Source: Clostridiales bacterium (lineage in GTDB: Bacteria > Bacillota > Clostridia > Oscillospirales > Oscillospiraceae). From it: a stretch of DNA of 35,515 nt. The notes beneath the pieces were generated by a model. The model had not been told where the DNA came from, made no database searches, and worked only from the letters and a program-made list of their open reading frames with translations. The stretch lies in assembly GCA_029267755.1 (NCBI GenBank), contig JAJUHS010000007.1, forward strand, positions 1 to 35,515, in the 5' to 3' direction. A program made the translations under genes and the position numbers. Positions 14,591 through 31,545 of this stretch are shown in pieces; within the stretch, counting starts at the first letter, position 1, and the number at the start of each line of letters is the position of its first letter.

Positions 14591-15478
14591 CTATTGATAG
14601 CTTTTCTCCAGTGCCTGAGCGAAATCGGAGACAGCGGGATTCTCCTGATCTTCATGCCAGAAGCACTGAAGCTCCTCCATCTTTCCGATCGGATAGCATA
14701 TCAGCTCGCTGTTCATGCTCATTCGGCTGAGCATAGTGGAAACCAGCACTCCCTGTCCGAATTTTGCCGCCATGTACGCAGATTCAAGATTCGCGGATAT
14801 TATTATCTCGGATGGTGAAAAACCCAGCTCCGCACACTGCCGCCGCGCACGCTGTTTGCTTTCCGACAGGCGCTCGTGGCTGGCCGCAGCCTTTATGAAC
14901 GGCTCACAGCGGAAGTCATTGACCGTAGCGCCTTCCGTGGCCTTTGGGTTGTCTGGAGAAACAAGCAGCACAAGTGGCGTTTCCAACGCCTTCATCTTCA
15001 TTATGCCGGATCCTTTGGGAGCAAACTCGCTGTAAGTAATGATAAGATCCAGCTTGCGACGTGAGAAAAGCTCGTTAAGTTCAAACTGCGGATGCTTTTC
15101 GACTACAAAATGCAGCTTGGGATTATTATCCCTTACGACCTTAAGCGCGTTGCTTATGCCAGACGATATTTCAAGCCACTCCAGATGACCGATCAGCAGC
15201 GAACCGTTTACGTTATCATAATATTGGCGTGTCTGCTCGGTCACATCGAAAAACTCTTCCTCCATGCGGCTGAAAAATTCATAATAATTCCTGCCGGCTT
15301 TTGTAAGCATGACATAGTGCTTCGTGCGAATGAAGAGTTTGAACCCCAAGTCCTCCTCCAGCTTCGCTATATACTTGCTTACGGACTGCTGCGTCATGTA
15401 CATTGCTTTTGCTGTCTCGGTAAAGTTGAGAACCTTAGCCAGCGTAAGAAAACAGCGTATAGAGGTTTCGTTTATCAA
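14591..15478 (-). CDS. LysR-family transcriptional regulator
   Basis: LysR regulators are tetrameric activators or repressors with an N-terminal winged helix-turn-helix and a C-terminal two-lobed effector domain. Residues 1-60 are typical (SIRCFLTLAKVLNFTETAKA, then QQSVSKYIAKLEEDLG). The substrate-binding fold follows from about 90, with a hydrophobic LLIGHLEW strand. The 295-residue length is standard. The start is TTG with GGGGG eight bases upstream; no in-frame ATG fits. It lies between the symporter and mobB on the same strand, so it probably senses a phenol or a pathway intermediate, but the effector is not known. Its upstream gap (15479-15558) holds ACCCG-TT-CGGGT and the 9-mer ATAACAGCC that also occurs in the large operator at 27.9 kb. 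Confidence 0.88.
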   Translation of the reverse strand: MINETSIRCFLTLAKVLNFTETAKAMYMTQQSVSKYIAKLEEDLGFKLFIRTKHYVMLTKAGRNYYEFFSRMEEEFFDVTEQTRQYYDNVNGSLLIGHLEWLEISSGISNALKVVRDNNPKLHFVVEKHPQFELNELFSRRKLDLIITYSEFAPKGSGIMKMKALETPLVLLVSPDNPKATEGATVNDFRCEPFIKAAASHERLSESKQRARRQCAELGFSPSEIIISANLESAYMAAKFGQGVLVSTMLSRMSMNSELICYPIGKMEELQCFWHEDQENPAVSDFAQALEKSYQ

Positions 15479-16983: not shown

Positions 16984-17633
16984 ACCATACACCCTATCTT
17001 TTGCGGTATTATCAGATCCGCAGCTGTTTTAGACACTACCTCTTCTACCGTCACTCCCGGAGCCAGCTCCTTGAGTACAAGACCCTCAGCAGTGCGCTCA
17101 AGAACGCAAAGCTCGGTTATTATATAGTCAACCTCGTTCACGGCGGTAAGCGGAAGCGTACACCTTTTGAGGATTTTTGGGTTGCCGTGCTTATCGCAGT
17201 GCTCCATCATAATAAGCACCTTTTTAGCGCCGGAAACGAGATCCATCGCTCCGCCCATTCCCGCGACGGTTTTGCCGGGTACGGTCCAGTTTGCGAGGTT
17301 TCCCTCCTGGTCGACCTCGTATGCACCCAGTACAGTAGCTGCAACGTGTCCCCCGCGTATAAGTCCGAAGGACGTAAAGCTGTCAAAGCAGCAGCCTCCG
17401 GTACGCATCATTGACATTCCGCCGGACGCATCAACTACATTTGGGTCGCCCTCTTCCCCCTCTTTAGGGGCGCCTGTCAATCCGATAACGCCGTTTTCGG
17501 ATTCTATCCAGATGTCAACACCCTCGGGCAGATAGTTCATGCACATGGTGGGCATTCCTATGCCGAGATTTACAAGGTCGCCGTCCTCAAAGAATCTGGC
17601 CGTCCTGTATGCTATCAGTTCTCTTTTCTCCAT
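16980..17633 (-). CDS. 3-oxoacid (acetoacetate) CoA-transferase, subunit B
   Basis: Family I CoA-transferases move CoA between acids through a glutamyl-CoA intermediate on the B subunit. The catalytic glutamate is E46 in IESENGVIG. Other family blocks are LGIGMPT (23-29), DASGGMSMMRTGGCCFD, and GKTVAGMGGAMDLV (about 133-146). The 217-residue length is normal. It is 15 bases downstream of subunit A and overlaps the symporter start by four bases. In this island it would convert free acetoacetate to acetoacetyl-CoA with acetyl-CoA or butyryl-CoA as donor, feeding the thiolase. Butyrate-acetoacetate CoA-transferase is the closest general description; donor preference cannot be read from sequence. 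Confidence 0.9.
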   Translation of the reverse strand: MEKRELIAYRTARFFEDGDLVNLGIGMPTMCMNYLPEGVDIWIESENGVIGLTGAPKEGEEGDPNVVDASGGMSMMRTGGCCFDSFTSFGLIRGGHVAATVLGAYEVDQEGNLANWTVPGKTVAGMGGAMDLVSGAKKVLIMMEHCDKHGNPKILKRCTLPLTAVNEVDYIITELCVLERTAEGLVLKELAPGVTVEEVVSKTAADLIIPQKIGCMV

Positions 17634-17648
17634 TTTGCTTCCGCCCCC

Positions 17649-18302
17649 TTATATCTGTACGATCATGTCAACCAGGCAGCCGGGAGTATGAATGACATCC
17701 GGATCCAGCTCGCCGACCTCAACGATCTGTTCCGCCTCCACAATTACAAGGTCGGCGGCAGTCGCGAAAATCTGATTGAAGTTTCTTGCCGTCCTGCGGT
17801 ATACAAGATTTCCCATCTTATCCGCCTTCCATGCGTGAATAAGCGCGACGTCTCCATGAAGGGGCTTTTCAAGCAGATACTTTTTGCCGTCGACCTCTAT
17901 TACCGGCTTGCCTTCGGCGATCGGAGTCCCAAGGCCTGTCGGGGTAAGAATTCCGCCTATTCCGGCGCCGCCGGCGCGGACGCGCTCGCAGAGCGTTCCC
18001 TGCGGGACAAAGGTTACATTTATCTCGCCGGCGACTACCTTTTCAACCGTCTCGGTATTGTTGCCTATATGGGAGCAGGTGATGTGCTTGATGCGGTTTT
18101 CATGGACAAGCATGCCTATTCCGCGTCCTTTTATGCTGGTATTGTTCGATATCACGCTTAAATCCGTGTATCCCTTTTCTATAATTCCTTTGATAAGCGT
18201 CTCAGGCACTCCGCAATTGACGAATCCGGGGATAAGAACCGTAAGGCCGTCTCGGAGTTTCCCCATCGCTTCGTCAAGGGAGACTACTTTATTTTTTGGC
18301 AA
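17649..18302 (-). CDS. 3-oxoacid (acetoacetate) CoA-transferase, subunit A
   Basis: This is the partner chain of the family I CoA-transferase. It shows the N-terminal KVVSLDEAMGKLRDG, the glycine-containing CoA-binding block IPGFVNCGVPETLI (about 24-37), the ERVRAGGAGIGGILTPTGLGT segment (given in part), and DVALIHAWKADKMGNLVYR. The 217-residue length equals that of subunit B. The start is TTG with AAGGAAG seven bases upstream, and the resulting N-terminus matches the family, so an ATG further in is unlikely. The 87-base gap to the upstream BKACE gene holds only a small GC-rich palindrome (CCGGATATCCGG). Confidence 0.9.
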   Translation of the reverse strand: MPKNKVVSLDEAMGKLRDGLTVLIPGFVNCGVPETLIKGIIEKGYTDLSVISNNTSIKGRGIGMLVHENRIKHITCSHIGNNTETVEKVVAGEINVTFVPQGTLCERVRAGGAGIGGILTPTGLGTPIAEGKPVIEVDGKKYLLEKPLHGDVALIHAWKADKMGNLVYRRTARNFNQIFATAADLVIVEAEQIVEVGELDPDVIHTPGCLVDMIVQI

Positions 18303-18389: not shown

Positions 18390-19319
18390 TTAAGCCTTAA
18401 AGGTTACCTCGCCGGTAACCTCGTCGCGGAGGCAGTGGCGGGTGATGCCGAGGATCTCTCTGGCGTCGTCGGCTGTCGCGATTTCGCGGCCGGCTATCTT
18501 GCAAAGCGCAACGGCGCGCTCAACCAGCATCAGGTTGGTCGCTATGACCTTTGTTCCGTCAGGGTTTACACTGTAAAGGATGTTGTCCTCAAGGCCGACG
18601 CGCAGCCCGTCGCAGCCGAGAGCAAGCCCCGCCAGCATCATGGGCATATGCGCCCTGCCGCCGATTCCGGACACGGACCATGTAGCGCCCTTTGGAAGCT
18701 TTCCGGCCAGGAAAGCCAGGTTCTCGGTCGTGGCGGGCATGGAGCCTCCAACGCCCATTATAAACTGGATGTGGGGGGGCTGGGGAATGTTCCACTTGTT
18801 GACATAGTACATCACGCTGTCGATATGGCCCGTGTCGAATACTTCAAACTCGGGCTTAATGTCATGCTTGATGACTTCCTGGCTCAGCAGGTTCAGGAAC
18901 CTCGGGCTGTTTTCGAAGATATAGCTGTTTGCCCAGTTGAGGGTATTCGGATCGAACGAGCACATTTCGGGCTTCAATGCCCCCAGATGCTGCAGGCGCT
19001 TATGATCCTCGTACTCGCCGCCCGAGGTCGTCAGGTTGATAATGATGTCTACTCCTGCTTCCTTGCAGGCCTTTCGGGTCATTTCGACCGCCTCGGTAAA
19101 CTTTTGTAGGCTCATGGATTTATAGCCTATCTGCATTACGCCGTCAACCATCTTATCCTCGCGGACGTGGATGTGTGCGATTGAAGCACCGGCCTTCGCG
19201 CAGGCAACGATCTGCTCGGAAAGCTCTTCGGCCGTGTATGGCACCGTTGGTGCCTGTTCCTTTTTCGTTCCGGCGCCGCAAAGGCACACCTGAATCATAA
19301 CTTTATTTGTCTTAGCCAT
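18390..19319 (-). CDS. BKACE/DUF849 beta-keto acid cleavage enzyme, candidate triacetate acetoacetate-lyase
   Basis: BKACE enzymes condense a beta-keto acid with acetyl-CoA and release acetoacetate plus a new acyl-CoA, using a metal ion. The metal-binding histidines are H49 and H51 in AHIHVRED. The family blocks INLTTSGG, FEVFDTGHIDS, and GCDGLRVGLEDN (glutamate ligand) follow. The 309-residue length is normal. The best-known member, 3-keto-5-aminohexanoate cleavage enzyme, acts in lysine fermentation, but none of the other lysine genes (aminomutases, dehydrogenase, ammonia-lyase) is present. Next to the ring-opening and dehydrogenase genes the expected substrate is triacetate (3,5-dioxohexanoate), giving acetoacetate and acetoacetyl-CoA. 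This is an inference from context and from the described clostridial phloroglucinol pathway. Confidence 0.82.
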   Translation of the reverse strand: MAKTNKVMIQVCLCGAGTKKEQAPTVPYTAEELSEQIVACAKAGASIAHIHVREDKMVDGVMQIGYKSMSLQKFTEAVEMTRKACKEAGVDIIINLTTSGGEYEDHKRLQHLGALKPEMCSFDPNTLNWANSYIFENSPRFLNLLSQEVIKHDIKPEFEVFDTGHIDSVMYYVNKWNIPQPPHIQFIMGVGGSMPATTENLAFLAGKLPKGATWSVSGIGGRAHMPMMLAGLALGCDGLRVGLEDNILYSVNPDGTKVIATNLMLVERAVALCKIAGREIATADDAREILGITRHCLRDEVTGEVTFKA

Positions 19320-19352: not shown

Positions 19353-20315
19353 TTAAACTGGATCGTCCATGAACTTTTTTGCGAGCTTAAACACCTCAAA
19401 CAGCTGCTTATCGCGCTTTGCCAGAAGGGCCTGCTTGTTCACACCGGTGTAGTCATAGAAGCCCTTTCCGGACTTCAGGCCCAGTTCTCCCTTTTCTATA
19501 TGCTCGGCAAGAGTTTTCGGCATATCGACCTCGGGAGGCATGGTATAGCTCTTATTCTTGTAATTGTTGGCGGTCATGTCGAGTCCGCCGAAGTCCGCTC
19601 GCTTGCAGAGGCCTAGCACCACGGCGCGGGGAATAAAGCTCGCCTTTACGGCTTTGTCGATATCCTCCGGCGTGCAATAGTCGTTGTCGAGCAGGTAAAA
19701 CAGTTCCTGATTAAGGCACATCTGCATGCGGTTCGCTATATATCCGCGGATAAACTTTTTCATCGGCACGGGGGTTTTGCCGCACTTTTCAAGCAGAGCT
19801 ACGGTTATATCGCAGTATTCCTGCGGAGCCTTCTCACTTTTTACGACCTCCACCAGCGGAATGAGCTGGGGTGGCGCATACCAGTGGGCTATAACCGTCT
19901 GGGGCAGACGGCGTTCCGGCACAAGCTCGAATATGTTCAGTCCCGATGTGTTTGAGGCGATGATGCAGTCCTGTCCAATAAAGGAATCAAGCTGCTCGAA
20001 AAGCGCCTTTTTGGCATCGCGATTTTCGACTATGGTTTCCATTATGAAATCCGCGTCTTTGACGGCTTCCTCAACGGTGAGCTTAAAGCTTACCCTTGAA
20101 AACACCTTGTCTATATCGGCGGCAGGCAGAAGATCCTCCTCCGAGAAGGTTACAATGCTCTTGTAAAGAGTTTCCTTGGCCTTCTCGCGAGTTTCCTCGC
20201 TTCGTGTCCACATTGTCACCTCATATCCGCCCATAGCGAATATCTGCGCGATGCCTGGGCCCATGGTTCCGGCCCCGAGCACCGCAATTTTCTTGATGTC
20301 CGAAAGTGCTTTCAT
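19353..20315 (-). CDS. 3-hydroxyacyl-CoA dehydrogenase family enzyme, candidate 3-hydroxy-5-oxohexanoate dehydrogenase
   Basis: The 320-residue protein has the NAD(P)-binding motif GAGTMG (14-19). The catalytic apparatus of 3-hydroxyacyl-CoA dehydrogenases is kept: S121 in SNTSGL, H144, E156 twelve residues later, and N195 in IANRMQ. The loop after the histidine, normally HFFNP, is HWYAPPQLIPLVE here, which suggests a different substrate. The ATG at 20315 follows the ring hydrolase stop by two bases. The predicted role is oxidation of (S)-3-hydroxy-5-oxohexanoate, a free acid, to triacetate. Ordinary beta-oxidation or butyrate synthesis is the alternative, but the tight coupling to the cyclase gene argues against it. 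An upstream extension to 20378 is open but has no start signal. Confidence 0.82.
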   Translation of the reverse strand: MKALSDIKKIAVLGAGTMGPGIAQIFAMGGYEVTMWTRSEETREKAKETLYKSIVTFSEEDLLPAADIDKVFSRVSFKLTVEEAVKDADFIMETIVENRDAKKALFEQLDSFIGQDCIIASNTSGLNIFELVPERRLPQTVIAHWYAPPQLIPLVEVVKSEKAPQEYCDITVALLEKCGKTPVPMKKFIRGYIANRMQMCLNQELFYLLDNDYCTPEDIDKAVKASFIPRAVVLGLCKRADFGGLDMTANNYKNKSYTMPPEVDMPKTLAEHIEKGELGLKSGKGFYDYTGVNKQALLAKRDKQLFEVFKLAKKFMDDPV

Positions 20316-20317
20316 AA

Positions 20318-21220
20318 TCAGAACGAACCCTCTTCCCAGGCGACAAGTCTTACGAATCCGCCATCCGCCGCCTCGCATCGGAAGGGGAACGCGGCTATTA
20401 TCATTCTCCTGCCGGTGCAGTCGTCAATATCTCCGCCCGCGTTTTCAACAGTTATTACGCCGTGCTGCATGAACAGGCGGTGGCATGGCTCATAGTCCGG
20501 ATACTCGAGAGCCGCGTTTTTGCCCGTTGCGAGAGTGTAAGCGGTGTCGAGCCAGGGCATCTGCTCTTTAAGAGGCATATGCCACAGCGGCCCGTCGGTT
20601 GCACCCCATGTTCCGGATATGCCCTTTATTTTTTTCTCGTGGATGAGCCATTTCGCAACCTCGGGACCCATACCCGGATAATAATTGAAATACTTGTCGT
20701 TATTTTTTCTCCAATAATGCTGGAAGCCTGTGTTTACGACCACCCAGTCGCCCTCTCTGATCTCAAGGCCGTCCTTTGCCGCGGCCTTTTCGAAGTCGGC
20801 GGGCTTGAGTTCTACCCAGATGTCGCCGAATTTTGCGGGGTCGCCGCCGGCGGCGTTCCACTTTGCCTCAAACTCGACTGCGAGATGGCGCATATCCAGT
20901 ATAACACCGGTACCGATGCAATATTCGAGCGGTATTTCGCTGAGCGTGTAGCCGTTGCGCTCCCTATCCACCTCTTCCTCATGCAGAACATGGTTCGGAG
21001 CGTCCATATGGGTGCCGGCGTGCAGTGTGCCGGTGTAGGTGCAGGTACGCTTATGGAAGCGCCCTAGATACTGCCCGCGCGGGAAAACCAGATCCTGACG
21101 GGGACCCGGGAAGGGCCACAGCGGGGTGTCAATGCCCCAGGGATGGGACAGGTCATAAATTTTGGTCATGGTTTTTCTGTCAAGATAGAGCTTGCTTTTG
21201 TCAAGAGGCATATATGCCAT
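20318..21220 (-). CDS. Cyclase-family metal hydrolase, candidate dihydrophloroglucinol cyclohydrolase
   Basis: The protein belongs to the kynurenine-formamidase-like cyclase family. The metal motif HxGTHxDxPxH is complete: H67, H71, D73 and H77 in HAGTHMDAPNH. The 300-residue length is longer than bacterial kynurenine formamidases (about 210), with insertions rich in Trp and Tyr. A strong AGGAGG lies eight bases before the ATG, and the gene is first on its transcript, divergent from the MerR regulator. In the known phloroglucinol route a member of this family hydrolyses dihydrophloroglucinol to (S)-3-hydroxy-5-oxohexanoate, and the next two genes encode the enzymes for that product. A kynurenine or cyclic-amide substrate would not fit the neighbours. 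Confidence 0.82.
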   Translation of the reverse strand: MAYMPLDKSKLYLDRKTMTKIYDLSHPWGIDTPLWPFPGPRQDLVFPRGQYLGRFHKRTCTYTGTLHAGTHMDAPNHVLHEEEVDRERNGYTLSEIPLEYCIGTGVILDMRHLAVEFEAKWNAAGGDPAKFGDIWVELKPADFEKAAAKDGLEIREGDWVVVNTGFQHYWRKNNDKYFNYYPGMGPEVAKWLIHEKKIKGISGTWGATDGPLWHMPLKEQMPWLDTAYTLATGKNAALEYPDYEPCHRLFMQHGVITVENAGGDIDDCTGRRMIIAAFPFRCEAADGGFVRLVAWEEGSF

Positions 21221-21323: not shown

Positions 21324-22133
21324 ATGGTGCAGTACAAGATAGGCGACGTGGCTCGTATTCTCGGAATATCGCGGGATCTTCTGCGCTATTACGAGAAAAA
21401 GGGCGTGGTACGTCCGCATAAGGATATTAACAACGACTACCGCTATTATGATACCTGGGACATCAACTTTCTTCTCGACTGCGTCTGGTATAAAAATTTC
21501 GGATTCAGCATAGAACAGACGGCCCATATGGTAACCAACTGTCCGTACGACGATCTGCTTCAGGATCTTGACGCCAAAAAGGACGAGCTTCTCGCTGCCG
21601 TCAAGCATCAGCAGCTCCTGATGCGGCGCATTTCGGAGCATCGTGACAGCGTCAGCAGGATCGCGGACTATATCGGAAAGTGTGATATCCGCGAATGTCC
21701 CGAAATTGTCTGTTACTTAAACCGCTATAATTTTATATATGACAACCGTCCCGAGCTGCAGGCTCTCAGCCAGAGCTGGTTGAATTACATGCCCTTTACC
21801 CAGCGCTATTTTGAAATAAACCAGGAGGACCTTCTGGGGGAAAGCGATAATTACGCCTGGGGCTTCTCGCTTGATATGGAGTATGTACGCGAGCTCAACG
21901 TTCCCGAAAAACCCCCCGTCGTCCATCTGCCGCCCTGCCGCAGCATACACTCGGCGTTCAAAAGCTTCGGAAAAAACGGCTTTACTCCCCGGCACATAGA
22001 CTACATAGTGGATTATGCCGAAAAAAACAATCTGCAAATCTGCGGAAACGCCCGGGGTAACCTCGTATGCAGCGTCCTCGAGGACGGCGTGGTAACCGGG
22101 TATTTCGAGGTCTGGCTGCCGATAAAAGACTAG
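21324..22133 (+). CDS. MerR-family regulator with GyrI-like effector domain
   Basis: The N-terminal 70 residues are a MerR winged helix (YKIGDVARILGISRDLLRYYEKKGVV, in part, then DYRYYDTWDINFLLDC). A dimerising coiled coil follows (about 75-115, QDLDAKKDELLAAVKHQQLL), and the C-terminal 150 residues look like a GyrI/BmrR-type small-molecule-binding domain ending in GYFEVWLPIKD. No metal-binding cysteine pair is present in the usual place, so it probably senses an organic ligand. GAGGTG lies five bases before the ATG. It is the only plus-strand gene inside the pathway cluster and is divergent from the ring hydrolase, which is its most likely target. A strong terminator follows. Confidence 0.85.
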   Translation: MVQYKIGDVARILGISRDLLRYYEKKGVVRPHKDINNDYRYYDTWDINFLLDCVWYKNFGFSIEQTAHMVTNCPYDDLLQDLDAKKDELLAAVKHQQLLMRRISEHRDSVSRIADYIGKCDIRECPEIVCYLNRYNFIYDNRPELQALSQSWLNYMPFTQRYFEINQEDLLGESDNYAWGFSLDMEYVRELNVPEKPPVVHLPPCRSIHSAFKSFGKNGFTPRHIDYIVDYAEKNNLQICGNARGNLVCSVLEDGVVTGYFEVWLPIKD

Positions 22134-22185: not shown

Positions 22186-22986
22186 TCAGCCTATCGCGGT
22201 AAGCCCGCCGTCGGGATAAAGAATATTGCCCGTCATAAAATCGGAAGCGGGGGCGGCAAGGAATATAGCGGTACCAACTATGTCCTCAGGTTTGCCCATC
22301 TTGCGCATCGGGTTTCCGGCTCCCTGCTGCTTAAGGTATGTTTCGACGTCGACTCCTGCCTCCGCGGCGCGCTTTTCAAAAACGGGAACCATCATAGGCG
22401 TTGCGGTGATGTTAGGTCCTATGGCGTTTACGGTAACGCCGAAGGGACCGAACTCCGAAGCGAGCTGCTTTGTCAGCATATCGACTGCGCCCTTTGTCGC
22501 ACAGTATCCGGCGTTACCCGGACCCTTAGTTGCGATCTTGCCGCGAACAGAGGACAGGTTGATGATTTTGCCATAGCCGTTCTCCTTGAAATGGCGTCCG
22601 AAGTGCTTCGCTGTGATCATAAAGCTGGTTATATTGGCGTCGAGCATCTGGCGGAAGGTTTCTATGTCAAAATCAAGCGCATCCTGCTTTTTGTTGAAGC
22701 CCTGGGCGTTGACCAGAATGTCGATTCTGCCTCCGAGCTTATTTTTAGCATCCTCCAGCATGGCTTCCACCTGCGCCTCGTTTGTTGCGTCTGCCACGCT
22801 GTAAAATACATCTATACCCGTTTCGGTCTTAATCTCTTCCTTGGCTTTTTTAAGGGAATCCTCTTTGCGGCTGGATATCAGAACCTTCGCGCCCGCTTCC
22901 GCAAGGCCCTGGGCAATTGCCTGCCCAAGTCCGCCGGCTCCGCCTACAACGACCGCGCATTTGCCGTTAAGATCAAAAAGTTTCAT
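22186..22986 (-). CDS. Short-chain dehydrogenase/reductase, candidate phloroglucinol reductase
   Basis: This is a classical SDR of 266 residues. It has the nucleotide-binding motif GGAGGLG (15-21), NAQG (93-96), N118, the catalytic serine S145/S146, and Y161-x3-K165 in GYCATKGA. The absence of an acid at the end of beta-strand 2 and the ISSRKED basic residue there suggest NADPH. It is the last gene of the transcript starting with the first molybdenum enzyme, 75 bases after the thiolase. In the known anaerobic route an NADPH-dependent SDR reduces phloroglucinol to dihydrophloroglucinol, which is the substrate of the cyclase-family hydrolase encoded 1 kb away. An acetoacetyl-CoA reductase is the main alternative. 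Confidence 0.8.
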   Translation of the reverse strand: MKLFDLNGKCAVVVGGAGGLGQAIAQGLAEAGAKVLISSRKEDSLKKAKEEIKTETGIDVFYSVADATNEAQVEAMLEDAKNKLGGRIDILVNAQGFNKKQDALDFDIETFRQMLDANITSFMITAKHFGRHFKENGYGKIINLSSVRGKIATKGPGNAGYCATKGAVDMLTKQLASEFGPFGVTVNAIGPNITATPMMVPVFEKRAAEAGVDVETYLKQQGAGNPMRKMGKPEDIVGTAIFLAAPASDFMTGNILYPDGGLTAIG

Positions 22987-23061: not shown

Positions 23062-24252
23062 TCACAGCAACTCGATAATATCCGCCGTACCCATGCCGCC
23101 CGCGATGCAGAGCGTAGCAAGCCCGTACCTGACGCTGCGGCGGCGCATTTCATGCAGCAGCGTAACAAGTATGCGGCAGCCCGACGATCCCACGGGATGC
23201 CCCAGCGCGATTGCTCCGCCGTTGACGTTTACAATCGATTCATCCATACCCAGTTCGCGGATGCAGCCGATAGCCTGCGCGGCGAATGCCTCGTTCAGTT
23301 CAACAAGCCCGATATCGCCGATCGTCAGTCCGGCCTTTTCGAGAGCCTTACGGGTTGCGGGGACGGGGCCGAGGCCCATGATTCTCGGGTCGATACCCGC
23401 ATTTGCGTAGCTTACGAATCTGGCAAGCGGCTTAAATCCAAGCTCTCTGGCCTTGTCGGCGGACATGATGAGCATCGCCGAGGCTCCGTCGTTGCGTCCG
23501 GAGGACGTACCCGCCGTTACCGTTCCGTTCGGTTTGAAAGCGGGCTTCAGCTTTGCCAGCTTCTCAAGCGAAGTTTCCCTGGGGAATTCGTCGGTATCGA
23601 AAATTATGGGGTCGCCCTTCTTCTGAGGTATGACAACAGGAACGATTTCCTGCTTGAAGCGCCCCTCGCGAATCGCAGCGGCGGCCTTCTGCTGGCTCTT
23701 CAGCGCAAAAACCTCCTGCTCCTCCCTCGTAATGCCCATTTTTTCGGCCACATTCTCCGCCGTCATGCCCATGTTAAAGCTGCCGTATATCTCCTGCGGC
23801 TGGCTCTGGGGCTGCACCTCGACCAGCGAGTCGAGAAGCTGAGTATTTCCGGTGCCAAGACCAAATCTGGCTCCGCGAATATAGAAGGGAGCCGTGCTCA
23901 TGCTCTCTGCGCCGCCCGCGATTACGACGTCGCAATCGCCGCTTTTTATGCTCATCACCGCATTGTTTACGGCGGTCAGGGCCGAAGCGCACTGCCGCAT
24001 CACCGTGTATGCCGGAACCTCCTCCGGTATTCCGCAGTAGAGGGCGGCGAGCCTCGCGATATTCGGATTATCAGACGACTGGCGGCAGTGGCCCATAACC
24101 ACTTCGTCGATTTTTTTTGGGTCTATGCCGCTTCTGTCGATAATGCCCTTGATGACGGTTCTGGCGAGCTCGACGGCCGAAACATCCTTAAGCGTTCCGC
24201 CAAGCGTTCCCACAGCCGTCCTGCAGGCCTCGACTATAACTACTTCACGCAT
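23062..24252 (-). CDS. Acetyl-CoA acetyltransferase (thiolase)
   Basis: Thiolases cleave acetoacetyl-CoA with CoA into two acetyl-CoA, or run in reverse. The 396-residue protein has the nucleophile C88 in MRQCASAL, then [10 protein letters not shown], the base H352 in GHPVGSSG, and C382 in CIAGGMG. The canonical form after the nucleophile is CGSGL or CASGL; here it is CASAL. GAAGGAG is close before the ATG. It lies between the small subunit of the molybdenum enzyme and the SDR on one transcript, and would complete the pathway to acetyl-CoA. Confidence 0.93.
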
Positions 24253-24312: not shown

Positions 24313-25149
24313 TTACAATATTGGGCAAAGAATGGTCTCTTCGACAAAGTGATCCTTATCCGTCACTGCCGACAGCTTTACGCTCCTATATCCCTTCATC
24401 TCAATGGTAATGTCAAACTTCTTGTCCTTGGGCAGGTTATCGACCTCCCAGTCGCCGGCCCAGTTTGTAACGGTTTCAAAGACCTTGCCGCAGCTTTCGC
24501 ATTTCAAAGTGACTTTTGCCCCGATAGCCACTTCATCCTCCGGCAAATACACGGTTCCCGCAAGGAAGATGCCCGGGATGTTCAGGTGTACGACGTTTGT
24601 TTCCTGTCCCTCAAGGCCCTTGAGCTGTGTCACCTTTCCGGCCGCTATTTTCTTTGAAACCTCGCTGTTGGGATCGTCAAGGTCGCCGAAGATGAGCGCC
24701 TGGTTTGGGCAGGCTTCCACGCAGCGCGGGACCTTATAGCCTTCTTCAAGCAGCTCTGCGCACATGGTGCACTTCTGCGCGACCTGCTCCTCTTCGTTCC
24801 AGTAAATTGCTCCTATCGGGCAAGAATCTGCTATTTCCTTCTGTCCCTTCGCCTTGACGGGGTCTATGATGACGATTCCGTCCGGTCTTTTATATACCGC
24901 ACCGTTTTTCGCTGCTTTCATGCAGGCGGGATCCTGGCAGTGCGAACAGGGCGTGGGTACAGTCGCAACTTTTATATTGCCTGGCCTGTCGCCGCGCTCC
25001 CATTCGACAATGTTCATCCAGAACTGGCCCATATGAGGCTCGGCAACCGAATATTTTGAGGAATATCCGCAGTGTTCGTCCTTGCATGCCATGAAGCAGT
25101 TGTAGCAGGCCATGCAGCGTGCGGAATCGATGGCAATACCGTATCTCAT
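24313..25149 (-). CDS. athS: Transhydroxylase-type iron-sulfur small subunit with three clusters
   Basis: This 278-residue chain is a ferredoxin-like partner of the molybdenum subunit. Cysteines at 12, 15, 18, 22, 68, 71, 76, 110, 127, 130, 143 and 147 can bind three [4Fe-4S] clusters. The four cysteines of a fourth cluster, present in the paralog at 30712, are replaced here by A80, A100, Q103 and I106. As I recall, the Pelobacter pyrogallol transhydroxylase small subunit also has three clusters. The C-terminal part (about 190-278) is a beta-sandwich, Cna-B/carboxypeptidase-regulatory-like domain (AIGAKVTLKCESCGKVFETV, in part, then GDWEVDNLP), another mark of that family. The gene starts one base after the large-subunit stop. 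Confidence 0.85.
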   Translation of the reverse strand: MRYGIAIDSARCMACYNCFMACKDEHCGYSSKYSVAEPHMGQFWMNIVEWERGDRPGNIKVATVPTPCSHCQDPACMKAAKNGAVYKRPDGIVIIDPVKAKGQKEIADSCPIGAIYWNEEEQVAQKCTMCAELLEEGYKVPRCVEACPNQALIFGDLDDPNSEVSKKIAAGKVTQLKGLEGQETNVVHLNIPGIFLAGTVYLPEDEVAIGAKVTLKCESCGKVFETVTNWAGDWEVDNLPKDKKFDITIEMKGYRSVKLSAVTDKDHFVEETILCPIL

Positions 25150-25150
25150 C

Positions 25151-27718
25151 CTACTTGACCCCCTCTAAAATTTTTTCAAATCCCTGTCCGTATTCAGCGG
25201 GCACCTCGAATTTTTCAACTTCCACGAGGGTCGTATTGGGAACCATTCCCGGCACCTTGCGGCCCATGAGCTGACTCGGTGTAAGAAGGTTCGTGCAGCC
25301 GCCCTTGTCGGCGGAAATCTCGCCGTAAACCACGGGATTGTATATTCCGGAAGACGCGTAGCAGTGTATGGTTTCGGGTTTTACGCGATTTGTTATGCGC
25401 GCGATCCCCAGTATGGAGCCGCGGTCATTGTAAACCCGGATTATATCTCCCTCGGAAATGCCTTTTTTCTCGGCTACTATCGGGTTTATGCGAATGACCT
25501 GATAGGGGTTTCCGTTTACGACCTTGCGGTTCTCCGGGATTTCCCAAAGCCATTTGTTATGCTGCTGATGGTGAGTGTGGTAGTCAAATCTCGGATGCGG
25601 GGATATTAGCGCATAGGGGAAGCGATGGGCCAGCAGCGATTTATGGCCCTCCCAGCTATGCTTATAAGAGGCTATGGGAGTACGCACCTCATCGTCAGGA
25701 GCGTACTTCAGAAGGCTTTCCGAAACGAACTCGAACTTGCCCGTAAGAGTGCCGAGCTTTCCTTCCTCCTGACAGGGCTTGTGGTTCGGGGTGTCGCAGG
25801 GATAACCCTCCGCAAACCAGCGGAAGCCGTAGTGGCGCTCCCAGTTTTCGGGTACGCCCGCAACATAGTAACCCTTCTTCATAAAGTCTTCCCAGCTTAT
25901 TCTCTTGCTGAGATCGCTGAATTCCCAGAAGCGCTTGCACCACGCAAGCTCGTCGCGCCCCTCGGTGAACTTCTCGCCGAAGCCGAGGCGTTCCGCGAGC
26001 TGGGAGAATATCCAGTAGTCCGAACGGGATTCCCAAAGCGGCTCTATCGCCTTATCCTGGAATACGACTACCTGCCAGTTGTTGCCGGTCTGGCTGTGGC
26101 TTTGGTATCCGGAGTTTCCGGAGTTGCAGAACTCACCTATATCATATCGTTCGAGGTTTGTGCAGGCGGGCAGTATAACGTCCGCAAAGCGTCCCTCGGG
26201 ATTGAAGTGTATGTCCTGGTTGACGACGAACTCGAGCTCCGGACTCTTGTACATTTTAGCCCACTTGTTTGTATCGAGCATAGTTCCGAAGAAGCTGCCG
26301 CCGTAACGGTAGAACATATGCACCCTGTTGCAGCCGGGCAGCGGATAGACGTGCTCGGTGAACTGCTGCTCCAGCGAACCGCCGCAGAATCCCTCTCCAT
26401 ACCACTCGTAGTGGCCCTCAAGAATGGCCTCTGGCAAATTGGTGCGGTACAGCACCTGCTGCACCTCGTTTACCGGCGTATAGTCGGCAACCGGAGCCGA
26501 AGCTATTGAGCTTTTCGGGTCTGAATATCCGCCGAACCAGAAATTATAGTCCATAGGCGCGCCCGTGGTGCCGGTCCACATGTTCTGGCCGGGCTTGCCC
26601 ATACCCTGCATCGCGAAAAGCTGAACCATAATTCTCGCAAATTCGGTACCGTTTGCGGTGCGGCATACTCCGCCGAAACCGCCGCGCATTCCCGAGCCGC
26701 CCATGGTCTTTGTGGACGCCCAGCGGCGGGCTATTGCCTTAATGTCGGCCGCCTTGACGCCGGTAATTTCCTCCGCCCATTTCGGGGTCTTCGGAGTTCT
26801 GTCGACGCCTTTACCAAGTATATGATCAGCCCACTCGTCAAAGCGGTGAGCATGCTTTTCGATATATTCCTTATCGTATGTGCCCTCGGTCAGCCATACA
26901 TAAGCGATGGCTTCCGCAAGCGCCGCGTCCGTGCCCATGCGGGGTCCTATCCACTTGTCGCCGTTCTTTACGCTTGAGAAGTTGTTGAACGGGTCGATGT
27001 AGATAAACTGTACTCCCAGCTCCTTGAGCCAGTGGCGCCAGATCGCGCTTTCGTTTGCCGCATAGCCGCCGCGGGTAGTATCCGGGTCATGCGACCACAT
27101 AATCATGGTCTCGACATTTTTCAAAGCGTCCTCGAGCAGATCAAAGGGTTCCGGGCCGCCAAGACGCCACCAATAGCCGTAGGTGTGCGGAGCGCCCCAG
27201 TGGAAGCCTTCCCAAGAGTCGGGATTGTCCATTATGCGGGTGTATCCGAGCATATTGAAGAACCGCTTGAAGCATGAAAGCTTATAACCGAGAAGCCCCC
27301 AGCTGTGGTGAGAGCTGGTTATCGCCGTCACCGACTCCTTGCCGTAGGTTTTCTGGATGCGCTTAGTCTCCCTTGCTATGAGGTCAAGCGCCTCGTCCCA
27401 GGTTGCGCGGCGGTATCCGGACTTGCCCCTGTTTTCTGTATTGCGGTTTTTGCCGTCCGGCGTCTCCACAAAGTCCTCACGGATCATCGGATACTTAAGG
27501 CGGTCGTAAGAGTAAACCCTGTCCTTTTCCTGAAGCGCTACAAGTGATACCGTGGTATTTTTGGGCGGGCTGAAGGTCCTTCCTCTAGCCTCAATCTTCC
27601 ATGGCTTAGGGTCGGTCTCGTCAAATACAAGAGGCCTTACGCGCCTGATTACGCCGTCTTCGGTGTGTATCCTGATCGGACCGCCGACACAAATGCTGTG
27701 GGTGATCTTTTCAGCCAT
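25151..27718 (-). CDS. athL: Molybdopterin oxidoreductase, pyrogallol-phloroglucinol transhydroxylase-like large subunit
   Basis: The 855-residue protein belongs to the DMSO reductase family (bis-MGD molybdenum). It lacks an N-terminal CxxC iron-sulfur motif and a Tat signal, as expected for cytoplasmic transhydroxylase (about 875 residues in Pelobacter). Active-site residues of that enzyme, recalled as His144, Tyr152, Arg153, Asp174, Ser175 (Mo ligand), Trp176 and Tyr404, align with H137, Y145, K146, D167, S168, W169 and probably Y398. The spacing of 30 between the histidine and aspartate is the same. The reaction would move a hydroxyl group from a tetrahydroxybenzene cosubstrate to pyrogallol, giving phloroglucinol. 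GGAGGGAGATAT precedes the ATG. It is first in a transcript with its small subunit, a thiolase and the SDR. Confidence 0.85.
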   Translation of the reverse strand: MAEKITHSICVGGPIRIHTEDGVIRRVRPLVFDETDPKPWKIEARGRTFSPPKNTTVSLVALQEKDRVYSYDRLKYPMIREDFVETPDGKNRNTENRGKSGYRRATWDEALDLIARETKRIQKTYGKESVTAITSSHHSWGLLGYKLSCFKRFFNMLGYTRIMDNPDSWEGFHWGAPHTYGYWWRLGGPEPFDLLEDALKNVETMIMWSHDPDTTRGGYAANESAIWRHWLKELGVQFIYIDPFNNFSSVKNGDKWIGPRMGTDAALAEAIAYVWLTEGTYDKEYIEKHAHRFDEWADHILGKGVDRTPKTPKWAEEITGVKAADIKAIARRWASTKTMGGSGMRGGFGGVCRTANGTEFARIMVQLFAMQGMGKPGQNMWTGTTGAPMDYNFWFGGYSDPKSSIASAPVADYTPVNEVQQVLYRTNLPEAILEGHYEWYGEGFCGGSLEQQFTEHVYPLPGCNRVHMFYRYGGSFFGTMLDTNKWAKMYKSPELEFVVNQDIHFNPEGRFADVILPACTNLERYDIGEFCNSGNSGYQSHSQTGNNWQVVVFQDKAIEPLWESRSDYWIFSQLAERLGFGEKFTEGRDELAWCKRFWEFSDLSKRISWEDFMKKGYYVAGVPENWERHYGFRWFAEGYPCDTPNHKPCQEEGKLGTLTGKFEFVSESLLKYAPDDEVRTPIASYKHSWEGHKSLLAHRFPYALISPHPRFDYHTHHQQHNKWLWEIPENRKVVNGNPYQVIRINPIVAEKKGISEGDIIRVYNDRGSILGIARITNRVKPETIHCYASSGIYNPVVYGEISADKGGCTNLLTPSQLMGRKVPGMVPNTTLVEVEKFEVPAEYGQGFEKILEGVK

Positions 27719-27819
27719 ATATCTCCCTCCTGTTGATTTTTTTGATCTTCACGCGGCAGAAATGACGGAACACGTCTATTCATCCAGCCGCAGTTATTAT
27801 GTGAAGCCGTTTTGTATTA

Positions 27820-27850
27820 ATTCTAAACCATGGAATAATACCAATGTCAA
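27820..27850 (-). promoter_or_regulatory. Promoter of the first molybdenum-enzyme operon
   Basis: On the minus strand the -35 is a perfect TTGACA (27850-27845). The -10 is either TTTAGA with extended TGG at 17 bp (27827-27822) or TAGAAT at 19 bp (27825-27820). A 19-bp spacer is typical of MerR-controlled promoters. The leader to the ATG is about 95 bases. Confidence 0.55.
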
Positions 27851-27884
27851 TCCCTTTATAAACACTATTTTTGTGCAGTATAGT

Positions 27885-27918
27885 TTACCGATAACAACCT
27901 ATTGGCTGTTATCGGTAA
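27885..27918. promoter_or_regulatory. Perfect inverted repeat, candidate operator between divergent operons
   Basis: TTACCGATAACA (27885-27896) and TGTTATCGGTAA (27907-27918) are perfect 12-bp arms around a 10-base centre. It lies in the 268-base gap between the two molybdenum-enzyme operons, upstream of both predicted promoters. Its centre is about 65 bases before the predicted plus-strand start, the usual place for a LysR activator site. No T tract follows either arm, so a terminator is unlikely. Confidence 0.7.
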
Positions 27919-27954
27919 TATAAAAAATTGGTTTCCTTTTAGGCTCAATTTTTA

Positions 27955-27960
27955 TATAAT
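27955..27960 (+). promoter_or_regulatory. Likely -10 element for the second molybdenum-enzyme operon
   Basis: TATAAT lies 27 bases before the start codon of the plus-strand large subunit. The matching -35 position holds only TTTCCT, a poor match, which suggests activator dependence. A GGTAAC half-site resembling the operator arm overlaps the start region at 27964-27969. Confidence 0.45.
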
Positions 27961-27986
27961 TATAGGTAACAAAAAGGGGTGACTGC

Positions 27987-30719
27987 ATGAACGATAAATT
28001 CAGACCCGACGAAACTAACATCGTAAGCTTCAGTCTTATGGGGCCGGAAAGCGGAGCTCCCTGTCTCGTGGATTCCAAGAACGGCGAAATGATTCGCATC
28101 AGGCCGTATTATTATGACAGAGAGCATATAGAAAAAAACTGCAACCCGTGGAAAATAGAGGCTAGGGGCAAAACCTTTGCCGCCCCAGAAAAGGTAACCA
28201 TTACTCCTTTCGGGCTGGGATACAAATCCAGAGTCTACTCACCCAACCGCGTGCGCTGGCCGCTCAAACGCGTCGACTGGGATCCGAAGGGCGAGCGGAA
28301 CCCGCAAAACCGCGGCAAAAGCAAATTTGTCCGGATTTCATGGGACGAGGCCGCGCAGATAGTTGCGGACGAGCTTGTGAGGATCCGCGACACCTACGGT
28401 CCGGAGGCCGTCTTATGCCAGGCCGATATGCACGGAGAGGGGAAAAACGTTTCCCCCAGTCACGGCTGCCCGAACCGTCTGCTTTCACTGATGGGCGGCT
28501 ACACGCTTCAGATGCGCAACGCCGACAGCTGGGAGGGCTGGTTCTGGGGTGCAAAGCACGTCTGGGGCTGCGAACCGGTCGGAGAGATGGCTCCGCAGGC
28601 AAACCTATACCCGGATATTGCCAAAAATTCGGACCTTCTCCTCTTCTGGGGCTGTGATCCGGAAACCACGCCTCTCGGCGTGGTCAGCCATATGCCCAGC
28701 AGGCTATGCTACTGGCTCAGCGAGATAGGTCTGAAAAGCGTATTTATCTGCCCGGATCTTAACTATGGCGCCGCGGTACACGCGGATAAATGGATACCCA
28801 TACTCCCGAACACAGACGCGGCCCTTCAGCTTGCAATAGCCTATATCTGGATAACCGAAGGCACTTATGACAAGGAATATATAGCCTCCCACGCTTACGG
28901 CTTCGATAAATTTGAGGACTACGTCCTCGGGCGCGAGGACGGTGTGCCGAAAACTCCCGCCTGGGCCTCCGAAAAATGCGGAGTGGCGGAATGGACCATA
29001 AAGGCGCTCGCAAGAGATTGGGCCAAAAAGACCGCCAGCATTATTCACGGAAACGGCGGCTGCTATATAAGGGGCCCTTATTCGACGGAACCCGCGAGGC
29101 TAGAGGTAATGCTGCTCGCCATGCGCGGGCTCGGGAAGCCCGGTGTGCATCAGGCAAAGATGATAGAGTGGAACCTCTGGAACCGGGATTTCCCCGTACC
29201 TTATCAGGGGCAGTTTGTCCCTGCTGTTCCTCATATATGCGACGCGCTCCGCCCTGTCGACGGGGACGTTTCTCCGGATATAAATATGAAGCGCTTCGTA
29301 CTTTCCGACGCGCAAAAGGAAAGAGCTCCGCAGCTTATAGATTTATTTGAGCAGCTTCCGGCACCGAAGCAGTTTATTCCTAGAACGCTTATTCACAAGG
29401 CAATTCTGGAAGGCCATGCGGAATGGTACGGCCTCCAGTGCTTTAGCAGCAGCCAGGTGCCGGACAAGAACAATTACCGCAAGCCGACATCCGAATACCA
29501 GTTTGAAAAAATTGTCTACCCTCGCCCGGGACTTTCCCGTGTTCACATGATGTGGACGGACGCCCCCTGTCAGGTGACCTGCTGGAATAACGGCAACCTG
29601 ACGATAGAGGCGATGCGAAGCCCTGAAATAGAGTGCATCGTAGCCCAGCACCCCTGGCTTGAAAACGACTGCTACTTTGCAGACATTATTTTCCCCGTCG
29701 CCACAAAGCATGAGATTTCGGACATCGGCAACGACCTTAGCTCAGGCGGGTTCGTTTCCGTGTATCTCGAGCGCCCATGCTGCCCGCCGGTGGGAGAGTC
29801 GGTTTCGGATTTCGACGTCTGTGCGCGCGTTGCGGAGAAGCTCGGCCCGGAATACCTCCGCGCTTATACGGGCAATCTTACGGAGGAGGACAGAGTCCGC
29901 TTTTTCTATGCCGCTTCCGGCTGCGAAGAGCATATGTCCTGGGAAGAATTCAAGAATCGGAAAATCTTCGTCGTTCCCTGCAAGCCGGACGCGCAGGAGC
30001 TTCCGGCAGGTCTTTACGAGTTCTACAAGAATCCCAAGGCAAATCCCCTGTCGACGCCGACAGGACTGCTTGAGTTCTCGTCGACGGCGATAGAAAAGCA
30101 TATGCCGGGCGACCCTGAGCGCCCGCCCGTTCCGAAATGGATAGAAAAGAGCGAAAGCCACGACGAAAGGCTTTCTAGCGAAAGGGCGAAAAAATACCCT
30201 CTGCTGTGCATGTCGAACCACGGGCGCTGGAGAATGCACGCGCAGTGTGACGACATCATCTGGAACCGTGAAGTCGAAACCATGAAGATCAGGGCGGCCG
30301 ACGGTTACCAGTACGAGCCGGTCTGGATGCACACAAGCGAAGCCGAAGCTCGAGGAATAAAGCACGGCGATATCGTCAAGGTGTTTAACGAGCGCGGGAC
30401 CGTGCTATGCGGCGCCTATGTCACCGAGCGTCTTATCCCCTGCACCTGCTATGTCGACCACGGCTCGAGGCTTGACCCAATCATTCCTGGAGTTTTGGAC
30501 AGGGGCGGTTGCATTAACTCCATTACACCCACATCGATGACTTCAAAGAACTCCACTGGAATGGCCGTCAGCGGTTTCCTTGTCGAGGTTCAGAAGGTCA
30601 CGGACGAGGAGATGGCCGCGTGGCGGAGGGATTATCCGGAGGCCTTTGCCCGGAAAGTAGACTACGCCGCCGGAGTATGCCTTGACGGCTGGCTGATTGG
30701 AGATGAGGAAAATGGCTAA
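27987..30719 (+). CDS. Second transhydroxylase-family molybdopterin large subunit, divergent active site
   Basis: The 910-residue protein is a paralog of the large subunit at 25151, again with no iron-sulfur motif or Tat signal at the N-terminus. It keeps the DSW triplet (D180, S181, W182; serine as predicted Mo ligand) and a histidine at 149 in ADMHGEGKN. The positions of Tyr152 and Arg153 of the Pelobacter enzyme become S158 and H159, and Tyr404 aligns with a phenylalanine (about F402) if NFWFGGY is matched to NLWNRDF. AGGGGTG precedes the ATG. Its partner has four clusters, which points to net electron transfer. Resorcinol hydroxylase-like or phenol dehydroxylase activity is possible; transhydroxylation of another ring is the alternative. 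The substrate is not known. Confidence 0.8.
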   Translation: MNDKFRPDETNIVSFSLMGPESGAPCLVDSKNGEMIRIRPYYYDREHIEKNCNPWKIEARGKTFAAPEKVTITPFGLGYKSRVYSPNRVRWPLKRVDWDPKGERNPQNRGKSKFVRISWDEAAQIVADELVRIRDTYGPEAVLCQADMHGEGKNVSPSHGCPNRLLSLMGGYTLQMRNADSWEGWFWGAKHVWGCEPVGEMAPQANLYPDIAKNSDLLLFWGCDPETTPLGVVSHMPSRLCYWLSEIGLKSVFICPDLNYGAAVHADKWIPILPNTDAALQLAIAYIWITEGTYDKEYIASHAYGFDKFEDYVLGREDGVPKTPAWASEKCGVAEWTIKALARDWAKKTASIIHGNGGCYIRGPYSTEPARLEVMLLAMRGLGKPGVHQAKMIEWNLWNRDFPVPYQGQFVPAVPHICDALRPVDGDVSPDINMKRFVLSDAQKERAPQLIDLFEQLPAPKQFIPRTLIHKAILEGHAEWYGLQCFSSSQVPDKNNYRKPTSEYQFEKIVYPRPGLSRVHMMWTDAPCQVTCWNNGNLTIEAMRSPEIECIVAQHPWLENDCYFADIIFPVATKHEISDIGNDLSSGGFVSVYLERPCCPPVGESVSDFDVCARVAEKLGPEYLRAYTGNLTEEDRVRFFYAASGCEEHMSWEEFKNRKIFVVPCKPDAQELPAGLYEFYKNPKANPLSTPTGLLEFSSTAIEKHMPGDPERPPVPKWIEKSESHDERLSSERAKKYPLLCMSNHGRWRMHAQCDDIIWNREVETMKIRAADGYQYEPVWMHTSEAEARGIKHGDIVKVFNERGTVLCGAYVTERLIPCTCYVDHGSRLDPIIPGVLDRGGCINSITPTSMTSKNSTGMAVSGFLVEVQKVTDEEMAAWRRDYPEAFARKVDYAAGVCLDGWLIGDEENG

Positions 30720-31545
30720 AGCTTTTATAATCGACGTTGCCCGCTGCAGCGGCTGCTTCAACTGCCAGCTCGCCTGCAAGGACGAGCACGCAGGTAACGA
30801 CTGGCGGCCCTATGCCGCTCCCCAACCCGAAATCGGGCAGTTTTGGATCAAGGTTCAGGAAAACGTCTGCGGCTCCATGCCTAAGCTGCGGATTCACTAT
30901 ATCCCCAAGCTCTGCAATCACTGCGAGAAGGCTTCCTGCATGGAGGCCTGCCCAAACGGCGCGATTTCCCGCCGAGAGGACGGGCTTGTAATAATCTCAC
31001 CGGAAAAATGCAAGGGCTGCTTAAAGTGCAAGGAAGCCTGTCCCTACGGTGTAATCTATTTTAACCAAAAGCTTAAAATCAGCCAGAAGTGCACCGGCTG
31101 CGCCCACCTTCTGGACAACGGATTCAAAGCTCCCCGCTGTGTTGAAGCCTGCCCCACCGAGGCCCTTCGCTTTGGAGAGGAGAGCGAGCTTTCCGATTTT
31201 ATTGAGGGCGCCGACGTTCTGATGCCCGAAACCGGTCTTCATCCCAAGGTGTATTACCGTAATATCCCCGGCCGGTTCATCGCCGGAACGGTTTACGACC
31301 CCGTGGAAAAAGAAGTCATTATAGGCGCGACATGCCTCTTAAACTGCGGCGGCAAGCTTTGGAAGGCTGCAACTGACGAATACGGTGACTTTTGGTTCAA
31401 CGACTTGCCTGTCGGAGTTTTTGACCTCGTCATTTCCGCCCCCGGCTTCGAGTACAAACCATTTTACGGGCTAAGGACCTCGAAGGACCTGAATTTGGGA
31501 GATATACCGCTTAAAGCGATAGACCAGGAAAGCAGAAAGCCTTAA
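30712..31545 (+). CDS. Iron-sulfur small subunit with four clusters, partner of the second Mo enzyme
   Basis: The 277-residue chain has all 16 cluster cysteines: 12, 15, 18, 22, 68, 71, 76, 80, 100, 103, 106, 110, 127, 130, 143 and 147. This is enough for four [4Fe-4S] clusters, and the numbering is identical to that of the paralog at 24313, which lacks four of them. The C-terminal part (about 190-277) is again a beta-sandwich domain (IIGATCLLNCGGKLW, GDFWFNDLPVGVFDLVISAP). I chose ATG 30712, which overlaps the large-subunit stop by eight bases and has GGAG nine bases upstream; an in-frame TTG at 30697 is weaker. No membrane anchor gene follows, so the electron partner is probably soluble. 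Confidence 0.85.
   Translation: MAKAFIIDVARCSGCFNCQLACKDEHAGNDWRPYAAPQPEIGQFWIKVQENVCGSMPKLRIHYIPKLCNHCEKASCMEACPNGAISRREDGLVIISPEKCKGCLKCKEACPYGVIYFNQKLKISQKCTGCAHLLDNGFKAPRCVEACPTEALRFGEESELSDFIEGADVLMPETGLHPKVYYRNIPGRFIAGTVYDPVEKEVIIGATCLLNCGGKLWKAATDEYGDFWFNDLPVGVFDLVISAPGFEYKPFYGLRTSKDLNLGDIPLKAIDQESRKP

Follow-up and report, generated by a model that had tools for sequence, protein, structure and literature searches.

The window analysed here, 35,515 nucleotides of the genome of an anaerobic Oscillospiraceae bacterium related to Sporobacter, harbours two intact pairs of large and small subunits of the transhydroxylase (TH) family that are divergently transcribed (24313-27718 and 27987-31545). 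Pair 1, on the minus strand, consists of L1 (25151-27718, 855 aa), a TH-type molybdopterin large subunit, and of S1 (24313-25149, 278 aa), a small subunit with three [4Fe-4S] clusters in which the FS4 cysteines are substituted. Pair 2, on the plus strand, consists of L2 (27987-30719, 910 aa), a large subunit that belongs to a sister clade, and of S2 (30697-31545, 282 aa), which combines four full [4Fe-4S] clusters with a C-terminal CarboxypepD_reg domain. All four open reading frames are unbroken at these coordinates. The true start of S2 is probably the ATG at 30712, which matches the start of the orthologue in Sporobacter termitidis; with this start, its overlap with the L2 stop is 8 bases. 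Between the pairs lie 268 bases (27719-27986), and promoter-like matches between 27600 and 28100 were at chance level (2 against a shuffle mean of 1.3). The genes 3' of pair 2 are convergent, one of the MMPL family and one without Pfam match, and have no evident link to the pairs.

L1 and L2 both contain PF21423, PF00384 and PF01568 above the Pfam cut-offs. PF21423, the pyrogallol hydroxytransferase large subunit domain 1, scored 64.6 bits in L1 and 42.7 bits in L2 for a cut-off of 27. The best PDB sequence match of both proteins is the Pelobacter acidigallici TH 4v4c (803 and 449 bits), which is likewise the top match of S1 and S2 (169 and 179 bits, S1 to 4v4c_B). The unbroken frames, the PF21423 domain and the 4v4c matches bear out the initial annotation, in which the locus was described as two back-to-back large/small pairs of one rare family. 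L1 and L2 are only 34% identical to each other. In a comparison with a genome of the same genus (G001), each large subunit gave a dN/dS of about 0.04 and the small subunits gave 0.06-0.08, at a dS above 1 that is near saturation.

On its left side, pair 1 adjoins a phloroglucinol fermentation cluster that is encoded on the minus strand except for a MerR-family regulator (21324-22133, plus strand, PF13411). From pair 1 outwards, it comprises a thiolase (23062-24252, PF00108/PF02803), a short-chain dehydrogenase (SDR) that is a candidate phloroglucinol reductase (22186-22986, PF13561), a cyclase-family protein that is a candidate dihydrophloroglucinol cyclohydrolase (DPGC; 20318-21220, PF04199), a 3-hydroxyacyl-CoA dehydrogenase (3HCDH) family protein that is a candidate 3-hydroxy-5-oxohexanoate dehydrogenase (19353-20378, PF02737) and a BKACE protein that is a candidate triacetate acetoacetate-lyase (18390-19319, PF05853). 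A CoA-transferase of two subunits (16980-18302, PF01144 in both), a sodium:solute symporter (SSS) (15559-16992, PF00474), a LysR regulator (14591-15478, PF00126) and MobB, for Mo cofactor nucleotide attachment (14091-14576, PF03205), complete the row. The SDR reductase, the cyclase-family hydrolase, the 3HCDH-family dehydrogenase and the BKACE protein, all over Pfam cut-offs, are thus found in one cluster, as are the SDR reductase PGR, cyclase-family hydrolase, 3HCDH-family dehydrogenase and KCE-like lyase described for Clostridium scatologenes, where a thiolase is co-induced (PMC10470551); the likeness is by gene type only. To the gene types given in that description, the window adds the two TH-family pairs, the CoA-transferase, the SSS transporter and MobB (PMC10470551). 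A UbiD-family decarboxylase (PF01977) had no match in the window's own genome (G000), which is 93% complete, and pyrogallol or catechol may therefore be supplied by neighbours. On the same ground, and at that completeness, gallate decarboxylation by a UbiD protein of the same genome was rejected.

L1 shares 45% identity with the P. acidigallici TH and is identical to it at all seven residues that we take to form the TH active site, H144, Y152, D174, S175, W176, Y404 and Y560, of which the tyrosines are assumed to have a role in the reaction. Other TH positions differ in L1, with R153 replaced by K, W354 by F, C557 by S and H154 by L. S1 contains FS1, FS2 and FS3 only. Pair 1 thus matches the P. 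acidigallici enzyme in Y152, Y404, Y560 and the three-cluster small subunit, in addition to the fold, the Ser Mo ligand, His144, Asp174 and the related small subunit that both pairs of the window have in common with it. It had been noted that pair 1 looked like a true transhydroxylase, and it is indeed TH-like by clade (100/100), by these seven residues and by its three clusters. Pair 1 is therefore predicted from its sequence to be a pyrogallol-phloroglucinol transhydroxylase feeding the adjoining phloroglucinol cluster. Hydroxyl transfer by such an enzyme needs no electron donor. Such a transhydroxylase requires 1,2,3,5-tetrahydroxybenzene as a co-substrate (PMC13039779). In S. termitidis, a second L1 copy (L206:8417-11095) is 75% identical to the L1 of the window, and no small subunit was detected alongside.

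For the phylogeny, 157 large subunits were reduced at 88% identity to 112 rows, and trees of 59 and 63 rows were built. Loci L001-L034, the duplicate loci L154, L155 and L174, large subunits shorter than 740 aa and near-copies at 88% were dropped before the counts. The scan for relatives used the best 80 of 173, and the sample therefore leans towards close relatives of L2. The 63-row tree divides into two clades, each recovered at 100/100, namely L1/TH with 29 rows and L2 with 32, and leaves two outgroup rows outside. The comparison with the Pelobacter TH, proposed as a check in the initial annotation, accordingly puts L2 outside the TH clade and in a clade of its own. The P. acidigallici TH falls into the L1 clade together with Delta-, Alpha- and Betaproteobacterial relatives, L1 and TH being in different subclades of it in the 59-row tree. 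The rows nearest to L1 come from S. termitidis and Sporomusa silvacetica and the one nearest to L2 from S. termitidis, whose strain DSM 10068 has an L2 that is 83% identical and a gene order identical to that of the window. The nearest named records are Oscillospiraceae and Clostridiales MAGs. The deepest branch of the L2 clade in the 59-row tree is a Burkholderiales row (L193, 37% identical), and its kin L246, L247, L248 and L252 (36-37%) were included in the 63-row tree. Besides many Oscillospiraceae MAGs, whose record titles point to rumen and further gut samples, the L2 clade comprises Lachnospiraceae, Eggerthellaceae, Chloroflexota, Bathyarchaeota and Burkholderiales. No paper describing this clade was among the literature matches listed, subscription journals being mostly outside their coverage. 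Judged by its sequence, pair 2 is a real, conserved and uncharacterised sister type in the Ser-ligated bis-MGD family.

The active-site residues separate the two clades. They were counted in 61 rows of the L2 clade and 47 rows of the L1/TH clade, in TH numbering with checked letters, and the DMSO-reductase-like L189-L192 were excluded. The L2 clade conserves H144 (60/61), D174 (59/61), S175 (60/61) and W176 (58/61); in L2 itself the Mo-ligand serine is S181, and the His and Asp of TH are kept as His149 and Asp180. The tyrosines of the L1/TH clade (Y404 in 47/47, Y152 in 46/47 and Y560 in 43/47) are, on the other hand, most commonly replaced in the L2 clade by Pro at Y152 (48/61), by Ile at Y404 (37/61) and by a gap at Y560 (61/61), and in the sequence alignment L2 itself has P, I and a gap at Y152, Y404 and Y560. 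The losses of Y404 and Y560 are less certain than that of Y152, because the alignment is gappy near both. In 60 of the 61 L2-clade rows W354 is Gly, and equally many have His at the position of TH H154, which varies in L1. The L2 clade also has its own signature, a D147-x-H149-x-E151 motif with H159 in L2 numbering (D147 in 59/61, H149 in 60/61, E151 in 58/61 and H159 in 60/61), whereas S, S and L are the commonest L1 residues at the positions of D147, E151 and H159. The difference in active-site residues attributed earlier to pair 2 is thus real and consists of the three missing TH tyrosines and of the D147/E151/H159 signature. Compared with the P. acidigallici TH, pair 2 is 34% identical and lies in a sister clade; it is without the three tyrosines and has this signature as well as a fourth cluster in S2.

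AlphaFold was used to model both large subunits. The L2 model has a mean pLDDT of 85.5 and a pTM of 0.89, with residues 183-192 and 194-198, just past the Mo ligand, below 50; that of L1 has a mean pLDDT of 80.0 and is poor at residues 166-187. The TH 4v4c was the top Foldseek match of the L2 model (E 4.5e-73, TMq 0.80). On this model, L2 is of the DMSO reductase/TH fold, and this says little about its reaction because VIA-align placed TorA (Z 37.6, 750 aligned residues, 2.8 A) above TH (Z 35.9, 808 aligned, 2.5 A).

The second difference concerns the iron-sulfur clusters. Small subunits were reduced from 175 to 125 at 90% identity, and the cysteines of S2 served as the cluster reference. FS4, whose ligands in S2 are C85, C105, C108 and C111, is the outlet cluster in the NarH layout. 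It is intact in 31 of the 42 non-redundant small subunits that follow L2-type genes and in none of the 83 that follow L1-type genes, and FS2 is also lost in about 25-26 of the latter 83. From these counts it seems that the TH side dismantles the electron wire while the L2 side mostly keeps it. The FS4 motif is present in three partners of deep-branching Burkholderiales-type L2 proteins (L193, L247 and L248). Among the proteobacterial L1-type small subunits (L243, L197-L202 and similar ones), the cysteines of both FS2 and FS4 are often gone, which seemingly leaves two clusters.

Nevertheless, 11 of the 42 L2-type small subunits are without FS4. Three of the loci concerned (L057, L064 and L077) combine three-cluster small subunits with large subunits that share 79-82% identity with L2 and retain the signature residues; their gene neighbourhood is that of the window, with a different orientation in L064 and L077. 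The FS4 state requires three changes in the small-subunit tree (108 rows), which together with these loci indicates that FS4 has been lost or exchanged within the L2 partners. An FS0-like motif was found in none of the 61 L2 and none of the 47 L1 large subunits. Moreover, no small subunit lies within 1.2 kb downstream of 22 of the 55 decidable L2-type genes, compared with 2 of 44 L1-type genes. In three of these 22 (L041, L066 and L067) it lies just upstream, and in four genomes (G011, G015, G041 and G060) a gene for an S2-like protein is located elsewhere, which weakens the idea that an L2 without adjoining S2 is an enzyme lacking any small subunit. In the Oscillospiraceae genome of L066 and L067 (G031), large-small-large arrays occur in which two large subunits may share a small one, and in another genome (G057, L041:2638-9500) two S1-type genes come after two L1-type genes, with an S2/L2 pair, S2 first, farther along. 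The difference in cluster content noted earlier is real, with four clusters in S2 and three in S1. The argument built on it holds as a clade tendency (31/42 vs 0/83) and fails as a rule, and FS4 was rejected as a strict marker of net redox chemistry. Cluster content remains suggestive, not diagnostic, given orthologues of about 80% identity without FS4, the 22 of 55 genes without a following small subunit and the absence of FS0. Of the earlier interpretation as a whole, a TH-like pair 1, a divergent paralogue in pair 2 and the phloroglucinol context stand, and its cluster argument is weakened.

The distribution of the two types was followed in 99 genomes, namely the own genome and those of its genus, family and order, the types being assigned by identity in the match tables. 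Both types occur in 18 genomes, L1 only in one (G010), L2 only in one (G051, 59% complete) and neither in 79, a co-occurrence whose Fisher value of 1.4e-17 is overstated as the genomes are kin. DPGC was found in 13 of the 99 genomes, all 13 with L1 and 12 with L2. Conversely, 7 of the 19 L2 carriers have no DPGC match, including one at 98% completeness (G045), which argues against a tie between L2 and ring cleavage here. L2 thus follows L1 more closely than it follows the ring-cleavage gene. Outside the family, seven genomes (G104, G105, G604, G605, G606, G608 and G610) have L1-type matches only, and an Eggerthellaceae MAG (G108) has L2-type genes without L1-type or DPGC match. LysR and MFS genes neighbour an Eggerthellaceae L2-type gene (L136), and that of a Dehalococcoidia genome (L210) has genes for UbiD and a UbiX-like flavoprotein beside it. 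Such contexts indicate that the L2 clade also occurs outside a transhydroxylase setting. An amidohydrolase and an MFS transporter are found near a Lachnospiraceae L2-type gene (L125). Although from distant phyla, L210 and L125 both have HpaB-like, butyryl-CoA:acetate CoA-transferase-like and iron alcohol dehydrogenase genes near L2, all below curated cut-offs.

No dedicated electron carrier recurs near L2 in 88 loci, where small subunits, phloroglucinol genes and regulators are the most frequent neighbours. An old-yellow-enzyme (OYE) type flavoprotein is present in 5 of the 88. One possible electron partner is an NADH:flavin oxidoreductase of this type, by Pfam, beside an unlinked S2 (L218:10229-12244), and a look-alike beside an L2 (L133:12915-14972) may be another. 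A small cupin gene also recurs near L2/S2, in 6 of the 88 loci (for example L213:19138-19503 and L055:8281-8526).

From the clade, the residues, the clusters, the linkage and the co-occurrence observed, we infer a reaction, a direction and a substrate for pair 2. In the L1/TH clade the tyrosines are conserved while clusters are lost step by step, which a hydroxyl transfer can afford if it is redox-neutral. In the L2 clade the Mo ligand, His and Asp stay in place, the tyrosines are replaced, acidic and His residues have been gained and a full wire, outlet cluster included, is mostly retained, for which the simplest reading is a net two-electron reaction. Our best guess, to which we give an even chance, is accordingly that pair 2 catalyses a net two-electron redox reaction on a di- or trihydroxybenzene. 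The phenol would bind at the Mo (Ser181), and protons would be handled by His149 and Asp180, kept from TH, together with the clade-specific Asp147, Glu151 and His159. With the TH tyrosines gone, oxygen would be exchanged with water in place of a co-substrate, and electrons would leave or enter via the S2 clusters, with FS4, which TH has lost, as the outlet. The product would join the same phenol pool as that of pair 1: either catechol-type phenols would be raised to trihydroxybenzenes, or the co-substrate tetrahydroxybenzene would be made. S. termitidis, which has the gene order of the window, is reported to grow not only on syringate but also on vanillate, with demethylation and cleavage of the ring (PMC4585845), and this would call for a step from the catechol to the trihydroxybenzene level. 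As for the direction, hydroxylation is a tentative choice and dehydroxylation an unlikely one. The former is favoured by a precedent in the same family, since the resorcinol hydroxylase RhL is described as a Ser-ligated relative of PgtL that catalyses hydroxylation (PMC10100899), while the dehydroxylation precedent lies, by the account in PMC7028382, in another clade only.

A more specific version is that 1,2,3,5-tetrahydroxybenzene is formed by pair 2 through the oxidation of a trihydroxybenzene with water, which would prime the transhydroxylase cycle and be a new Mo reaction. We know of no explanation for the origin of this co-substrate, and a priming role would account for the tight co-occurrence with pair 1; we nonetheless consider this version very doubtful. 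Tetrahydroxybenzene supply by pair 2 is no general requirement, as 5 of 12 genomes (G604, G605, G606, G608 and G610) have L1-type-level matches only, and a role as general supplier was rejected on this count.

The main rival to a net redox reaction holds that pair 2, too, is a transhydroxylase and differs from pair 1 in substrate or regiochemistry; its clusters would then have a structural role and its wire would be a vestige. Pelobacter massiliensis is said to have a transhydroxylase acting on hydroxyhydroquinone, which would be an example. The common family, Mo ligand, His and Asp, the absence of FS0 from both clades and the tight co-occurrence and linkage with pair 1 all fit this reading, and the orthologues without FS4 (11/42) or without a following small subunit (22/55) make it quite possible. 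It is less easily reconciled with the absence of the three TH tyrosines across the L2 clade in the alignment, with FS4 being kept in 31/42 partners against 0/83 and with the Eggerthellaceae MAG that has L2-type genes but no L1-type or DPGC match, and we regard it as somewhat unlikely on balance.

The two remaining alternatives overlap with the net redox proposal. Pair 2 could be a reductive dehydroxylase that uses phenols as an electron sink, of benefit to a fermenter, and that is a counterpart, from another branch, of the gut catechol dehydroxylases (Dadh, Hcdh, Cadh, Dodh and Cldh). These are also bis-MGD enzymes acting on phenols, with many paralogues, and the Gordonibacter type is described as cytoplasmic with an Fe-S partner (PMC11887054). 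The paralogue expansion in G031, with at least nine L2-type genes, recalls that of catechol dehydroxylases in Coriobacteriia (PMC11887054), and the Eggerthellaceae L2-type gene has LysR and MFS genes of its own. Against this, the catechol dehydroxylases form a separate clade near acetylene hydratase and away from Pht, by the account in PMC7028382, whereas the closest characterised relative of L2 by sequence is TH (449 bits against 41.6 bits to acetylene hydratase); the other characterised reaction met in the family is moreover a hydroxylation (PMC10100899). A reductive dehydroxylase hence appears improbable. Slightly more improbable still is that pair 2 is a known enzyme, the resorcinol hydroxylase (RhLS) of a fermenter, which overlaps with the hydroxylation direction. 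RhLS of Azoarcus anaerobius, likened here by description, belongs to the same Ser-ligated family, its RhL being a relative of PgtL, is cytoplasmic and acts on a phenol by a net hydroxylation as proposed for pair 2 (PMC10100899). Deep members of the L2 clade in Burkholderiales with four-cluster small subunits are in line with this, and nothing decisive speaks against it. Proteobacteria are also found in the L1/TH clade, and RhL may fall there or in the L2 clade. Resorcinol hydroxylase forms hydroxyhydroquinone from resorcinol with an electron acceptor, and RhLS serves anaerobic respiration whereas pair 2 adjoins a phloroglucinol fermentation cluster. RhL was not identified among the L1 matches in the order of a Burkholderiaceae MAG (10/399 genomes match at E 1e-60), nor among the L2 matches in the family of G474 (19/98 at 1e-70), and was not recognised in the contexts of the proteobacterial loci. 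The BzdN marker for Aromatoleum was found in 0/399 genomes but also in 0/14 controls, so that this result is uninformative.

Altogether, the L2 clade is an uncharacterised sister of a structurally solved, hydroxyl-transferring Mo enzyme, and with such clear differences in residues and clusters, a single family allows a test of how redox-neutral chemistry gives way to net redox chemistry or the reverse. Should pair 2 hydroxylate phenols, this would explain how catechol-level lignin products enter phloroglucinol fermentation, and perhaps also the origin of the transhydroxylase co-substrate.
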